Under the pieces are notes generated by a model that had not been told where the DNA came from, did not search any database, and saw only the letters and a list, made by a program, of their open reading frames with translations. A program made the translations under genes and the position numbers. This document shows positions 14,146 to 52,600 of a stretch of 64,000 nt of DNA, in pieces (position 1 is the stretch's first letter; every line of letters begins with the position of its first letter). This DNA is from Pseudofrankia saprophytica (GTDB lineage Bacteria > Actinomycetota > Actinomycetes > Frankiales > Frankiaceae). The stretch spans positions 831,097-895,096 of the forward strand of contig NZ_KI912267.1 in NCBI RefSeq assembly GCF_000235425.2, in the 5' to 3' direction.

Positions 14146-15864
14146 TCACAGGGCGTCTGGAATCGGCCGGGCTTCCGGGGCCGACAGCCCGGGTCGGTAG
14201 ACAGCGACCGTCCCACCGACCCGCTTCGCCTCGTACATGGCCAGGTCCGCCTGGTGCAGCACCGTCTCCGGCTCGGTGAGCGTGCCGGACTCCACGATGG
14301 CCAGGCCCACGCTCCCCCGGACCGAGTATGGCGTTCCGACGAGCAGACATGGCGCCGCGACGGCGTCGACGACCCGACGGCCGAGCCGGGCCGGGTCGTC
14401 ATCGCGGCCCTCGAGCAGGATCGCGAACTCGTCGCCGCCGAGCCGGGCGACCGTGTCCACGGCCCGGACGGCCCCGACGAGCCGCGCGGCCGTGACCCGT
14501 AGCAGTTCGTCGCCCGCGGCATGCCCGAGCGCGTCGTTGACGATTTTGAAGTCGTCGAGATCGCAGAACAGCACGGCCAACGACCGCGGGTCGCCGCCTC
14601 GGACGCGTCTCTCGAGCGCGTCGCCCAGACGTTCGCCGAACAGTGTTCGGTTCGCGAGCCCGGTCAGCGGGTCGTGGAACGCCTGGTACCGCAACTGGCG
14701 CTGGCTCGCCCGATAGCGGGCCAGCAGGCTCGCGTTGTCCCAGAGCGTGCCCACCTGCCGCAATAACGCCATGGTCAGCAGGAAGAGGAGCGCGAACATC
14801 TCGCCTCGCTGCACGGGCGCCCAGCTGACCAGCTGCACCAGCGCGAGCACGCCGACCGCGCACAGCGGGAGGTAGGGAAGCATCAGGTGCGCGACCTGCA
14901 GGCGGCTCGGCCGGGCGCCTTCCCCACTCTCGCCAGAGTCGCACGCGGACGGGGGCGGCGGCGCCCGGGCCGGGACGACCGCCGCCAGCCCGATGAGCAG
15001 CAACGAGGCGACGAAGGCCGTCGAGATCGGCGACGGCACCAGGACCCAGCGGCGCACCGCGGCGGCGGCATAGGTGACCGCCACCAACGCCAGGAGGATC
15101 AGTCCCGCGGCGAGCAGGCCGAACGCGGGCCAGTGACGCGGTCGTCGGAACGTGCCGACCAGGAAGACCGCCACCGTGAGCACCAGCGCGCCCAGGGCGA
15201 GCGCCCACGCCATCAGGACGGCTACCAGGCTGAATCCGCCGTGCAGGACGACATCCCCCAGCACCAGCTCCCAGTAGAGCAGCGCCAGCGAACCGACCAC
15301 GATCAGGCTGTCGAGCACGGTCGGGACCAGCCACCTACGGCTGGGTGCCTCAAGGTGCCGATCACCATGTCCACCACCCACGCGTCCGCCCGGCCCTCGA
15401 TCGAGAGAGTCGGTCGGCATGGTCAGCAGCCCCGCCAGAGCCAACGCGTAGCAGGCCATATAGCCAAGATCGGACAGCTGTAACCGCGGCACGTTCGTCC
15501 CGGACACGGCGGTCGACCAGACGCTGAAGCTCACACCGACCATCGTCAGGAGCGCGGCACCGCAGGTCAGCCAACGCCATCGGCGCTCGGCGCCCCGACA
15601 GCGCCAGCCCGCGAACCCGCAGCAGGCCGCCGCCGCTCCGGCCGCGACCGCCCCCGCCGACGCCTCCACCTCGACCCCCAGGTGGGGCTCCAGCGCCAGG
15701 GCGGTCACCAGCACCACGACCAGGAACACACCCGCGCACGCCACCATCCACCCGAAAGCGCGCGCGCTCACCACCGAACCGCCCACCGGGCGCGGCCGCT
15801 CCCCCGCGGGCCTGGCCGATCTGGGAGCCGCCGGCACCACAGCACCGGCTCCCGCGTCGAGCAT
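14146..15864 (-). CDS. Membrane-bound diguanylate cyclase (GGDEF)
   Basis: Residues 1-365 of the 572-residue product form about ten hydrophobic helices in place of a recognisable sensor. A GGDEF domain follows with DPLTGLANRTLF, FCDLDDFKIVND and an intact RLGGDEF (GGDEF at 476-480). The allosteric I-site RxxD (RAVD) lies five residues before GGDEF, so product inhibition is likely. It should make cyclic di-GMP from two GTP at the inner membrane face. No EAL domain. The epimerase follows within 37 bases on the same strand, suggesting an operon. The ATG at 15864 has only a weak purine-rich GGGGGTG upstream. Confidence 0.9.
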   Translation of the reverse strand: MLDAGAGAVVPAAPRSARPAGERPRPVGGSVVSARAFGWMVACAGVFLVVVLVTALALEPHLGVEVEASAGAVAAGAAAACCGFAGWRCRGAERRWRWLTCGAALLTMVGVSFSVWSTAVSGTNVPRLQLSDLGYMACYALALAGLLTMPTDSLDRGPGGRVGGGHGDRHLEAPSRRWLVPTVLDSLIVVGSLALLYWELVLGDVVLHGGFSLVAVLMAWALALGALVLTVAVFLVGTFRRPRHWPAFGLLAAGLILLALVAVTYAAAAVRRWVLVPSPISTAFVASLLLIGLAAVVPARAPPPPSACDSGESGEGARPSRLQVAHLMLPYLPLCAVGVLALVQLVSWAPVQRGEMFALLFLLTMALLRQVGTLWDNASLLARYRASQRQLRYQAFHDPLTGLANRTLFGERLGDALERRVRGGDPRSLAVLFCDLDDFKIVNDALGHAAGDELLRVTAARLVGAVRAVDTVARLGGDEFAILLEGRDDDPARLGRRVVDAVAAPCLLVGTPYSVRGSVGLAIVESGTLTEPETVLHQADLAMYEAKRVGGTVAVYRPGLSAPEARPIPDAL

Positions 15865-19056: not shown

Positions 19057-19438
19057 GAGACATCCCCCCGGGTCACATCGGATCGGGGGCGACCGTGACC
19101 CCGACGCAGCCTGTCCCTTCCCCGGCGCCGCCCGTAAAAACCCTGGCCAGCAGCGCTTCCAAGGCCTCCTTGTTCCCACAGCACCTGCTCGTCGGCCGAG
19201 ACGGAAAGCGACCTTGGTGACCGGCGATATTTTATCGTGGTATAGCGCGCCGTAACGGCGATGATCCCACCTGACTCATGTGAAAACCCCGGGGATCGGC
19301 CCGCCAATTTATAGCTCAGACCTTGCCCGAGGGTATGCATTTCACGTAACGTGGCGTAGTTCATGGAATACAGGCGGCGATCTCCATGGAAACCTGGACG
19401 TCGGCGCCTCCGGAGTCGGAGGGGGCACGGCCTCGACC
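19057..19438. promoter_or_regulatory. Divergent promoter region between ferredoxin-reductase and double diguanylate cyclase genes
   Basis: This 382-base gap is AT-richer than its surroundings in the middle. It holds a perfect inverted repeat CGATA-TTT-TATCG at 19225-19237, followed by GTGGTATAGC, a promoter-like sequence. No gene is supported. Open codons on the plus strand continue from 19280 but lack coding character. Confidence 0.45.
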
Positions 19439-22400
19439 AGGATGGTCTCGGCTAGCCCGTCGGCGAAGCCCGCCGGCGCGAAGTTCTCCGCCTCTTCCTG
19501 GACACGCATCGCGACGGCGCTGGCGCGCAGGCGGCAGACCGACGGCGGCCCCGGCGCGTGTGCAGTCGCCGGGCACGATGGCGATCAGGGCGACGATCAT
19601 GGTGGTGGCCGCCACCACGGCGGCGATGACTGCTCAGACCAACGGCGACGGAGCCGTCCGTGGCGCGCGGGCCGGCTGGGTCGGGCCGCGCCACTCGTCA
19701 CCGGCGCCGTCCTTGCCCTGTTGCTCGCGCTCGCCGCCCTGCTGGTCGGGCGCTGGCAGCTTGGCCACGCCGAGCATGGCCGTCTCGCCAACCGGGTCGA
19801 CCTCGTCGAGAGCATCGCGAACTACCGGTCGCAGACCGACGACCCGCAGATTCTCCAGACGATGGTCGACGGCGCCGGTTTCACCCTGACCGACCCGGCC
19901 CACGACGCCGCTCTGCTCTCGGCCTTCGACCTCACGCCGACGGGCAACCCGACGGCGGCCGTCGCCCTCCTGGATCCGGCCGGGCGGGTGATCGCGGCGC
20001 GTCCGGATGGCGCGGTCATCTCCACCGCCGAGCTGGGCAACGCCTGGACAGAGGCCCTGCGCGGCCAGCCCGGCTGGTCCTCGGCGTTCGACCTGGATGG
20101 CAGGGAGGTCCGGGCCGCGCTCGCCCCGGTCCACGCCGGTGGCGTCCCCACCGGGGGCGCCGCGTCCGGCAGGGACGAGCCACGGGCCGTCCTGGTCTCG
20201 CTGTCCATCGACACCGCCGGTGAGCGGTTCCAGGAGCGGCTCGGCGTGCTCGCCAACGGACCCGATACCGGCGGGCTGTCCCAGGTGGACCGCAACGGGG
20301 TCGCGATCTCCTCGTGGTCATCGACCGAGGTGGGCAGGCGCATCGTCGACCCGGCCCGGGTGGCGGCCCTGCGACCGGGCCATGCCGAGGTCTGGCAGAC
20401 ACATGGCGCCGACGGCCACGAGCAAACCGTCATCGCCGCCGTGCAGCGGACCACCGGCTATGTGACCACGTTCGAGGCCTCGAACGCACAGCTCTACGGG
20501 GACCTGCGCAACCAGCAGGCCAGCCGCAACCACACGCTCATCGGCGTGCTCGGCGGTTCGGTGTTCGGGCTGGTTCTCTTCGGCGCGGTCCGTGAGCTGG
20601 GAGCACGCCGGGCCCACGCCCGGCTGCACCACCTGCTCGGCAACACCCATGACGTGATCATGTTGGTCCGCGACGACTCGACCGTGGTGTTCATGAGCCC
20701 ATCGGCACGATGGTTGCTCGGCCAGGCCGACGCCGAGTGGGTGAAACGTCCGCTGCTCGACCTCGTTCATCCCGGCGACCGCGATCGGGTGGCGGCGTCG
20801 CTCGCCCGCCTTCCGCCCGGCGAGACGACACTCGTCAACGTCCGATTACGCGCTGGGACCGGCGCCGAGCGCGCGCCGACCCGGATCAGCGACACCGACC
20901 CGGAGACGACAGGCGACGCCGAGGCCACCGGGGGCACCGAGGTAACCCGGGACGCCGAGGCAACGGGGGACGCCGAGCCAACCGGGGATGCCGAGCACTT
21001 CCGTTGGTTCGACCTCACCGCCGTCGACGAACGCGGCCCTCACGATCTGGGCGGCGTGGTCATCACCTGTCACGAGGTGGGCGAGCGCAAGGCCCTCCAG
21101 GACCGCCTCGCCCACCAGGCCCGGCACGACCCTCTGACCGGGCTGCCCAACCGCGCGACCTTCCTCACCCACCTCGCCGGCGCGCTCACGACGTCGGCCG
21201 CCGACGGCACCCGGGACGCGCTGCTGTTCATCGACCTCGACGACTTCAAGCCGATCAACGACAGGCACGGCCACGCCGCCGGTGACCACGTGCTGCGCGT
21301 CGTCGCCCAACGCATCGTCGCCGCCCTGCGCCCGAACGACCTCGCCAGCCGGTTCGGCGGCGACGAGTTCGGCGCGCTGCTGCGCGCGGTCGACCCGGCG
21401 ACCGCGCGACTCATCGCCGACCGTCTCGCCACGGCCATCGCCCGGCCGATCAGCATGCCCGCGCCGGACCCTCCAGACGCGGCGACCGCGCCGGACGCCG
21501 CCGTGTCCGCGTACCGGGCCGTCCGCGTACAGGTGAGCGCCAGTATCGGTATCGCGCTGAGCACGCCGTCTCCCGACGGCCGCGCGACCCCCGCCGATGC
21601 CGGTGCCCTGCTGCGCGCCGCGGATCAGGCCATGTACGAGGCAAAGCGATCCGGCGACGGGCCTTGCACGGTGTCCGCGCCGGACACCGTGCTGGTCACC
21701 GGCCCAGCCTCGGCCGTCTCCGCGGCCCGCATGGCAGGCACGGGGAGTGCGGCGACCATCCCGCCGTCACCGCGGGCCGGGTCCGCGCCGGCATCGGGGC
21801 CGGCGGCGCCGACGTCCCGGCGGACCTGGCCCGCCTGGTTACGGTCCCTCGCCCCGATCCTCGCGGTCGCGGCGCTGCTGCTCGGAATCCTCGGGATCGG
21901 CCTGCGCCAGGAGGCCGACGCCCGGAGCATCGCGCGCGCCGTCGCCCTGACCCAGAACCGTGCCGTCGCGGCGGCGTTCAACGACTCCGCCTCGATGATC
22001 CTGGAGCCTGCGCGGCTGGTGCCGTTCGTCTCGGCCGCGCCGTGGACCTTCACGAATCCCGCGGTCGACCGCGGGATCCTGCGCGGGTTCGCCGCCTCCG
22101 CCATCGGCGGGCCGGACACGGATCTGCTGCTGACGTCGCCTGACGGGCAGGTTCTCTCGGCGCTGCCGGCGAAGGCGACGCTGCCGGTCGACACCCGAAG
22201 CGCCCTGTGGCGTTCGGTGGTGGCGGGCCGGGCCCAGTGGACGCCGGTGGTCGCCGACTCCGCCGGGGTCGAGCGGGTGTACGGGCTGGAGCCGGTGATG
22301 CGCGGGGACAGGACCGTCGCGGTGCTGGCCATCGGCCGCTCGGCGCGCCATGGGTTACCGACGGTGATCTTCCAGTCCCTCGCTCCGCTGGGCTCCCTGG

Positions 22401-23737
22401 AACTCGTCGACCAGAACGGACGCGTCGGCTTCGGCTCGGACGTCACGTTCATCGGTCGTCGCGTCGTCGACCCCGCAACGCTGCACAGGCTCCCCCCGCA
22501 GGGCGAGGCGGCCTCCGTCCGCTCGGCCGACCCGGGCCTGATCTCGTTCGCGATGCCGACGGGCACGATTCCCGGCTACTACACGCTCCTGCAACGAAGT
22601 CGGACCGTGGTCTTCGACGACCTCGGCAGCTCGCTGCCCGGGCTCGGGCTCCTGCTCGGCATCGTCGCGTTCACGCTGATCGCCGTGGCCGCCGCCGACG
22701 ACCGCCGCCGGCGCGCCCTGCGCCGTGACGTCGACCGGTTCGAGGCACTGCTGCGCGGCGCCCACGACATCGTCGCCGTCGCCGCCCCAGACGGCCGGAT
22801 CAGCGTGGTCGGCCCGTCCGTGACCCGCCTCCTCGACCAGCGGACCACCGACTGGGCCGGCCACGACGTCGGCGACCTGGCCCATCCGGACGACGCCGCC
22901 CGGCTGCGCGCCTTCGTCCAGACCACCGCCGGCCGGCGGGCGCCGTCGCGACCCGTCACGGCGCCGTCGCCCCCCACCTCGGGGAGACCACCGCCGGTTC
23001 CGGCGGCGGAGCCACCCGGTCCGCGGACGCTGCAGGACGTCCGGCTCCGTACCGCCGACGGCCAACACAGATGGTTCGACGTCACCGCGTCAGCGCTGAC
23101 GACCTCGGCCGGCTCGGCCGTGTCCGGCGTCCTGCTGACCTGCCACGACATCGGCGAGCGCAAGGTGCTCCAGGACGAGCTGACCGCCGCCGCGTATCAC
23201 GACCCGCTCACGGGTCTGCCCAACCGGGCCTCCTTCGCCCAGTGCCTCGACGCGGCCACCTCCCGGGGCACCCATGGGGCGGGCATCGCGCCGTTCGGCG
23301 TCCTGTTCGTCGACCTGGACAACTTCAAACCCGTCAACGACACCTACGGCCACCCCGCCGGTGACGAGGTTCTCGAGATCGTCGCCCTGCGGCTGGAGGC
23401 CACCGTCCGCGCGGGCGACCCCGTGGCGCGGCTCGGCGGCGACGAGTTCGCCATCCTCGTCGAGAACACGGACGAGGGCGAGCTTGTCGAGCTCGCCGAG
23501 CGGATCCTCGCCGCGCTGCGTCAGCCACTGCGGACCCACGGGGCGGTCCTGACCGTCGCGGCGACGATCGGTGCCGCGCTCTCCACCGCCTACCCCGACC
23601 CGGTGCGGGTCGTCCGCGCCGCCGACCTCGCCATGTACGACGCGAAACGTCGCGGTCGCGGGAGCGTCGTGCTCGCCAAAGCCGACGGGTGCCTCCCGCG
23701 CCGACCGGCCGGCGACCAACGACCTGGGGATGCGTAA
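19439..23737 (+). CDS. Giant double sensor-PAS-GGDEF diguanylate cyclase (tandem duplication in one chain)
   Basis: About 1,432 residues arranged as the same module twice. Module 1: membrane helix 86-107, extracytoplasmic sensor, helix 367-387, PAS-like domain about 395-545, GGDEF domain with the motif at 640-644 in SRFGGDEF. Module 2: helix 804-822, second sensor, helix about 1064-1087, PAS-like 1095-1230, GGDEF at 1333-1337 in ARLGGDEF. Both cyclase domains keep DPLTGLPNRA and I-site RxxD motifs (RPND, RAGD), so both should make c-di-GMP with feedback inhibition. No stop or ribosome site separates the halves. The start is uncertain: only ATG 19439 and GTG 19280 are in frame before the first helix, and the sequence before residue 80 is not protein-like. 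A TGDAE-type acidic repeat sits in PAS 1. Confidence 0.85.
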   Translation, partial: RMVSASPSAKPAGAKFSASSWTRIATALARRRQTDGGPGACAVAGHDGDQGDDHGGGRHHGGDDCSDQRRRSRPWRAGRLGRAAPLVTGAVLALLLALAALLVGRWQLGHAEHGRLANRVDLVESIANYRSQTDDPQILQTMVDGAGFTLTDPAHDAALLSAFDLTPTGNPTAAVALLDPAGRVIAARPDGAVISTAELGNAWTEALRGQPGWSSAFDLDGREVRAALAPVHAGGVPTGGAASGRDEPRAVLVSLSIDTAGERFQERLGVLANGPDTGGLSQVDRNGVAISSWSSTEVGRRIVDPARVAALRPGHAEVWQTHGADGHEQTVIAAVQRTTGYVTTFEASNAQLYGDLRNQQASRNHTLIGVLGGSVFGLVLFGAVRELGARRAHARLHHLLGNTHDVIMLVRDDSTVVFMSPSARWLLGQADAEWVKRPLLDLVHPGDRDRVAASLARLPPGETTLVNVRLRAGTGAERAPTRISDTDPETTGDAEATGGTEVTRDAEATGDAEPTGDAEHFRWFDLTAVDERGPHDLGGVVITCHEVGERKALQDRLAHQARHDPLTGLPNRATFLTHLAGALTTSAADGTRDALLFIDLDDFKPINDRHGHAAGDHVLRVVAQRIVAALRPNDLASRFGGDEFGALLRAVDPATARLIADRLATAIARPISMPAPDPPDAATAPDAAVSAYRAVRVQVSASIGIALSTPSPDGRATPADAGALLRAADQAMYEAKRSGDGPCTVSAPDTVLVTGPASAVSAARMAGTGSAATIPPSPRAGSAPASGPAAPTSRRTWPAWLRSLAPILAVAALLLGILGIGLRQEADARSIARAVALTQNRAVAAAFNDSASMILEPARLVPFVSAAPWTFTNPAVDRGILRGFAASAIGGPDTDLLLTSPDGQVLSALPAKATLPVDTRSALWRSVVAGRAQWTPVVADSAGVERVYGLEPVMRGDRTVAVLAIGRSARHGLPTVIFQSLAPLGSLELVDQNGRVGFGSDVTFIGRRVVDPATLHRLPPQGEAASVRSADPGLISFAMPTGTIPGYYTLLQRSRTVVFDDLGSSLPGLGLLLGIVAFTLIAVAAADDRRRRALRRDVDRFEALLRGAHDIVAVAAPDGRISVVGPSVTRLLDQRTTDWAGHDVGDLAHPDDAARLRAFVQTTAGRRAPSRPVTAPSPPTSGRPPPVPAAEPPGPRTLQDVRLRTADGQHRWFDVTASALTTSAGSAVSGVLLTCHDIGERKVLQDELTAAAYHDPLTGLPNRASFAQCLDAATSRGTHGAGIAPFGVLFVDLDNFKPVNDTYGHPAGDEVLEIVALRLEATVRAGDPVARLGGDEFAILVENTDEGELVELAERILAALRQPLRTHGAVLTVAATIGAALSTAYPDPVRVVRAADLAMYDAKRRGRGSVVLAKADGCLPRRPAGDQRPGDA

Positions 23738-52308: not shown

Positions 52309-52600
52309 CAGCCGGCCCTTGCCTTTGCGCTTGGCCGCGTACATCGCCGCGTCCGCACGGCGCAGCAGATCCTCGGCGTCGACCGGCCCGGGACCATCCG
52401 CGACGGCCAGCCCGACACTGACCTGAACCCGGCAACGCCGGCCACCGATCTCGAACGGCCGGCCCATCGCCGCCACGACCCGCCGCGCCACCCGCGCGGG
52501 CAGGTCACCCTGGACCTCAGCACCCGCCACCACACCGCCCACGGCACCTACGGCGTCCGCGGCGACCGCCATGTCGCGATCGGCCAGGACCGTCGCCCCG
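52273..52600 (-). pseudogene. Truncated GGDEF domain remnant
   Basis: The frame encodes only the end of a GGDEF domain: RVVAAMGRPFEIGG, CRVQVSVGLAVADG, DLLRRADAAMYAAKRKGKGR and a short tail. The first half with the DPLTGL and GGDEF motifs is missing, and the sequence before about 52560 has lost family similarity (a possible trace reads VGDGATVLADRD). It cannot make c-di-GMP. The upper boundary is approximate, and nothing coding was found from there to 52912. Confidence 0.7.

Follow-up and report, generated by a model that had tools for sequence, protein, structure and literature searches.

The 64,000-nucleotide stretch of the Pseudofrankia saprophytica genome analyzed here (the window) carries, at 19442-23737 on its + strand, a gene for one polypeptide in which the order transmembrane helix, extracytoplasmic sensor, transmembrane helix, PAS domain and GGDEF domain is run through twice, and the sequence makes a two-input diguanylate cyclase the most likely product. 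Diguanylate cyclases act by uniting two GGDEF domains, usually from two copies of the same chain. We find the doubled-module diguanylate cyclase family to be real and conserved in the Frankia/Pseudofrankia family, and we did not meet it in the literature searched: among papers on double-GGDEF proteins and Frankia cyclases, no doubled dCache-PAS-GGDEF protein is named in the titles and abstract openings listed, most subscription papers lying outside that scope. The reading that we favor, at somewhat better than even chances, is that of a membrane-bound two-module cyclase that works as one unit, arose by one tandem duplication and has had its modules inherited together.

The frame is open from a GTG at 19280 to the stop at 23735-23737. 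An earlier note on this DNA, made from its letters alone, had proposed a single polypeptide at 19439-23737 with two complete modules; the single frame and both modules stand, the start does not. The codon at 19439 is AGG and the closest in-frame ATG is at 19442, whose Met is aligned in the orthologues of two named Pseudofrankia relatives. The junction near 21,730, where the note had suggested looking for a missed stop, is stop-free, and the two named Pseudofrankia assemblies read through it in single frames of 1,511 and 1,515 residues. Pfam searches found PAS and GGDEF domains in each half, with GGDEF (PF00990) above cut-off in both (E values 1.6e-36 for A and 1.3e-42 for B), and no class III cyclase domain is among the Pfam matches of the window protein up to E 1. 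An alignment of the two halves spans 632 columns with 31% identity (E 4e-63). Hydropathy gives four hydrophobic helices, at residues ~83-104, 364-386, 801-822 and 1062-1083 of the protein (P0001). The features, all on the + strand, are as follows.

19442-23737, +: whole gene, 1,431 residues, two modules of transmembrane helix, dCache sensor, transmembrane helix, PAS and GGDEF; putative start.
19685-19750 (ends approximate), +: transmembrane helix 1, hydropathy peak 2.66.
19751-20524, +: sensor A, modelled double-Cache fold (AlphaFold2 and Foldseek).
20528-20596 (ends approximate), +: transmembrane helix 2, hydropathy peak 2.13.
20621-21073 (ends approximate), +: PAS domain A, Pfam PAS/PAS_4, with a low-complexity insert inside.
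21119-21673, +: GGDEF domain A, RPND inhibitory site (I-site) at 21329-21340, GGDEF motif at 21356-21370, Asp at the γ-phosphate Arg position.
21674-21838, +: inter-module linker, variable, 55 residues in the window and 55-181 among 34 genes.
21839-21904 (ends approximate), +: transmembrane helix 3, hydropathy peak 2.56.
21905-22621, +: sensor B, homologue of sensor A (blastp, hhalign).
22622-22687 (ends approximate), +: transmembrane helix 4, hydropathy peak 2.44.
22736-23158 (ends approximate), +: PAS domain B, Pfam PAS/PAS_9.
23192-23662, +: GGDEF domain B, RAGD I-site at 23408-23419, GGDEF motif at 23435-23449, γ-phosphate Arg kept.

Between the window and the two relatives, the ratio of nonsynonymous to synonymous substitution rates (dN/dS) lies at 0.27-0.48 for sensor, PAS and GGDEF domains alike, whichever the half, and at 0.44-0.65 for the N-terminus and linker. 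Across the family the spacing from PAS to GGDEF is 18 residues in 30 of the 33 matched A rows and in all 32 matched B rows, three rows being unmatched in this count.

The two sensors had been described as clearly different, and their sequences do differ, but they are diverged copies of one domain. With the transmembrane helices trimmed, sensors A and B share 23-27% identity, with E values between 4e-17 and 4e-11 for the main matches, and hhalign gives the pair a probability of 97%; unrelated sensors were rejected on this homology. Since the sensors are homologous, the whole module was duplicated. An AlphaFold2 model of sensor A from 74 sequences (mean predicted local distance difference test score (pLDDT) 86.0, predicted template-modeling score (pTM) 0.76) adopts a double-Cache fold, with a long N-terminal helix and two PAS-like subdomains modelled outside the membrane; the usable predicted fold is that of sensor A alone, the prediction for sensor B from 7 sequences having a pLDDT of 40.4. 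A Foldseek search of the PDB with this model listed 50 matches, mostly chemoreceptor or kinase ligand-binding domains, and those listed have E values of 8e-10 to 3e-7 and template-modeling scores by target of 0.31-0.68, some with root-mean-square deviations above 10 Å. They include Mlp24, PctA, mmHK1S-Z3 and 7k5n, the last being the proline-bound tandem PAS/dCache of a diguanylate cyclase from Aeromonas caviae; Cache or dCache appears in the titles of some, and we take the remainder to be the same. At the sequence level, Pfam dCache_1 finds nothing in the window protein up to E 1 and no Pfam family is above cut-off for sensor A, while a relative, L206, matches dCache_1 at 21.1 bits, under the cut-off of 45.

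Genome searches with the module or the sensor covered the genus (8 genomes), the family (35) and the order (the same 35), and frames were analyzed in 42 fetched regions and the window. The sensor is present in 33 of the 35 family genomes. Two sensors and two GGDEF domains lie in a single frame in 34 genes from 27 of the 35 genomes, with lengths of 1,180-1,739 residues, two of the genes (in G009 and G022:C281) running off the contig end; that homologues might always be split into two genes, as the earlier note allowed, is not what these genomes hold. No intact single-module gene was found among the fetched regions of the 35 genomes; a weak partial sensor match (G015:C154, E 4e-4, frame of 1,305 residues) lies outside these regions. 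Moreover, extra copies inside a genome are again two-module genes, two each in G012, G022, G024, G026 and G029 and three in G028, and in G013 the second copy is divided between contigs. Six genomes give a partial picture, the lone halves being found where a contig ends or a frame is broken: in G003 and G017 the halves sit on separate contigs, each at the end, G007 and G034 show a single half next to the end of a contig, and the broken frames are those of G031 and G032. The remaining two, G004 and G021, are without a sensor match in the family genome search. A protein scan of genome contigs returned three strong relatives, those of the two Pseudofrankia and one of Frankia nepalensis, whose contig stops after module A.

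Beyond the family, a class sample of 393 genomes, in which six candidates were scored per genome and weaker relatives may be missed, gave 39 genomes with a match, namely the 33 of the family and six others. Four of these outside relatives (L203-L206) are sensor-GGDEF proteins (sensor E 4e-21 to 3e-28), and the other two (L207 and L208) look, from their sequences, like sensor-histidine kinases. Two GGDEF domains in one frame are uncommon in the comparison sets: of the 27 GGDEF matches in the P. saprophytica genome, the only ones in a common frame are the two that belong to this gene; one of the 96 GGDEF frames in loci L012-L088 (that of L035) holds two; and a stricter motif scan of 88 loci found a double GGDEF only in L001, L009 and L010.

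In a tree of 79 sensors, the A sensors form one group (support 100/96), the B sensors another (98/95) and the outside sensors a third; the program warns that long branches, including that of the outgroup, come together. In the GGDEF tree, which has 97 rows and is of the kind that the earlier note had proposed, A and B require one change each, with support of 89/89; four A rows (L146, L163, L167 and L169) drift beside other GGDEF domains. Compared by eye, the A group and the B group show a similar order of genera. Together the two groups point to one old duplication that would predate the radiation of the family, followed by inheritance as a unit.

Catalytic positions are numbered after DgcR, as given in the accessible part of PMC8041772, in which K289 and R293 contact the γ-phosphate; the Asp174-Glu218 spacing agrees with the window, and the spacing of four between Lys289 and Arg293 served to locate these two. 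In alignment-based tables of 38 A rows, 38 B rows and 37 pairs, Asp174, Lys179, Asn182, Asp191 and GDEF are kept in 37 of the 38 A rows and 37-38 of the 38 B rows, and Lys289 in all 38 A rows and 37-38 of the 38 B rows; the exceptions to the kept core are the L171 frame fragment and the contig-truncated L141 B row. SGDEF is found in three A rows and Leu replaces Phe178 in one B row. In the window protein the metal, guanine and GGDEF catalytic residues are intact in both halves, and the earlier description of both GGDEF and both I-site motifs as intact holds, the GGDEF motifs lying at residues 640 and 1333 with RPND and RAGD five residues upstream. That one half is dead by decay of its core motifs was ruled out, the core being kept in both.

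Position 293 behaves differently. It is non-basic in A only in 25 of the 37 pairs, in B only in 5, in neither in 7 and in both in none; the window protein has Asp in A and a basic residue in B. As background, the 24 other GGDEF domains of the same genome divide into 12 basic, 11 non-basic and one gap at this position, and 79 of 97 GGDEF domains from L012-L088 are basic. The RxxD I-site is present in both halves of 13 pairs, in neither of 18, in A only in 3 and in B only in 3, so that, judged by this motif, the I-site varies across the family. In L160, L162, L164, L166 and L168, the N- and C-terminal parts of GGDEF-B are separated by a long insertion and its position 293 is non-basic, and GGDEF-A has Arg.

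In favor of the one-unit reading count the homology of the halves, the two-module frames in 27 of the 35 genomes together with the lack of an intact single-module gene among the fetched regions, the extra copies that again have two modules, the A and B groups, the core conserved in both halves, the dN/dS values, the constant PAS-to-GGDEF spacing and the loss of a basic residue at position 293 that in no pair affects both halves. The reading can be cast as a mechanism. A dCache-PAS-GGDEF gene would have been duplicated in tandem before the Frankia/Pseudofrankia family radiated; each diverged extracytoplasmic sensor would read its own ligand and signal its state to its own GGDEF domain by way of a transmembrane helix, the PAS domain and a fixed-length coil; GGDEF-A and GGDEF-B of one chain would meet as an asymmetric pair, with one GTP each, and both inputs would act on one site of cyclic di-GMP (c-di-GMP) formation. 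Coils of the same length standing next to each other on one membrane could bring the GGDEF domains face to face, and in-chain pairing, which the earlier note had suggested, is plausible; the equal PAS-to-GGDEF spacing permits it and is no proof of it. Taken to its full extent, the proposal is an intramolecular pseudo-heterodimer: GGDEF-A and GGDEF-B would join in a single asymmetric active pair under the control of two diverged dCache sensors. Such an enzyme would be for c-di-GMP what the transmembrane adenylyl cyclases are for cAMP, and would have been fixed in one actinobacterial family before its radiation and be raised in root nodules; we put this version forward tentatively, at a little under even chances. 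Downstream, c-di-GMP may feed into developmental control of the BldD type, as the literature suggests, BldD being present in Frankia according to the accessible part of PMC4151990.

Several observations weigh against the one-unit reading. Equal spacing is expected of duplicates, and the conservation is just as compatible with two chains that form A-A' and B-B' pairs. Given the non-basic residue in 11 of the 24 other GGDEF domains of the genome, loss of R293 is no mark of inactivity, and its losses, counted by eye on the GGDEF tree, amount to few independent events, approximately four for A and one or two for B. The frames of G031 and G032 are broken within a module, not at the junction. Finally, G004 is a single contig, 99% complete, and its lack of a sensor match indicates that the gene has been dispensable at least once.

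Trans pairing is the main rival to cis pairing. The chain would then comprise two ordinary homodimeric cyclases tethered together, the A-A' and B-B' pairs having independent sites whose outputs add. Each half does have a full catalytic core, linkers of 55-181 residues would allow such an arrangement, and, according to PMC8041772, a dimeric coiled coil connects the input and catalytic domains of diguanylate cyclases in nearly every case. However, tethered homodimers do not explain why the searches of 35 genomes turned up no intact single module and do not predict mutually exclusive loss of R293, and we consider them rather unlikely. It is less probable still that one half is regulatory, with GGDEF-A (GGDEF-B in one clade) binding GTP or c-di-GMP without catalysis and gating the other half. 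Inactive domains do serve as regulators in GGDEF-EAL hybrids (accessible part of PMC7825114), and a regulatory half is consistent with a non-basic R293 position in one half of 30 of the 37 pairs and with loss of the I-site from one or both halves in 24. Against it, the metal, guanine and GGDEF residues are without decay in either half, unlike those of known degenerate GGDEF domains. An assembly artefact or recent fusion of adjacent genes, for which little can be said beyond the frames broken inside a module in G031 and G032, is ruled out for practical purposes by the same fusion in 27 genomes and two named assemblies and by the age of the A and B groups.

In G008, probably Frankia alni ACN14a, the two-module gene at 836,225-840,775 is the only GGDEF gene found between 800,000 and 870,000. 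According to the accessible part of PMC10252897, FRAAL0757 is at 818,794 and FRAAL0911 at 981,382, positions that place FRAAL0771 roughly near 834 kb. FRAAL0771 (WP_011602011.1), which is reported to be 7.17-fold over-abundant in alder nodules, is therefore likely the F. alni copy of the two-module gene; if it truly is, the enzyme would be tied to nitrogen-fixing symbiosis.

The two-module gene points away from a ferredoxin-reductase fusion and a cytochrome P450 gene on the opposite strand, and a Methyltransf_19 gene lies downstream. The ferredoxin and pyridine-nucleotide reductase domains are in one frame adjoining the P450 (17290-19179 and 15978-17336, both on the - strand), possibly a self-contained electron-transfer set. 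The open reading frame lists show a P450 and reductase upstream in L009 and L010 as well, and a similar methyltransferase downstream in L009, with none among the L010 frames of at least 300 residues. A second GGDEF protein, of 572 residues, is encoded at 14146-15864 (-), ~3.6 kb from the double cyclase, and a GGDEF domain fragment (profile positions 100-160) lies at 52315-52497 (-) in an open frame of 138 residues, perhaps a remnant. Near the P. asymbiotica orthologue, L010:12813-14030 reads like an EAL phosphodiesterase.

A conserved natural chain that combines a pair of diverged sensors with two intact GGDEF domains makes in-molecule switching and a dual-ligand response testable, and its plan can be set beside known systems. 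SpdE of Aeromonas, STM1987, GcbC and rpHK1S-Z16 are single-module proteins and, like the modules described here, couple a dCache-type outer sensor to a diguanylate cyclase. The accessible part of PMC8846402 names these membrane dCache-GGDEF diguanylate cyclases and lists one dCACHE1 for each, whereas here the module is doubled, a PAS domain stands between sensor and GGDEF, and the sensors have no Pfam Cache match above cut-off. L203-L206, from other families of the class, likewise have a related sensor followed by GGDEF but are single-module proteins with frames of 442-562 residues (L204 runs off its contig), and Pfam scans of two of them, L203 and L206, gave no PAS match. Two GGDEF domains also share a chain in L035 (5710-8496), a PAS-GGDEF-GAF-GGDEF-EAL protein of a Thalassotalea metagenome-assembled genome, but its other domains differ, it ends in EAL, its second GGDEF has altered motifs as read from the sequence, and no module is duplicated. 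Mammalian transmembrane adenylyl cyclases have a transmembrane block and catalytic domain duplicated within the chain, with pseudo-heterodimeric catalysis and decayed residues in one half. The present protein shares with them the duplication of a transmembrane and catalytic module within one chain and, by analogy, may share the pairing; it differs in that the mammalian enzymes use a class III domain, make cAMP and have no outer dCache, and in that cis pairing is known there and proposed here.

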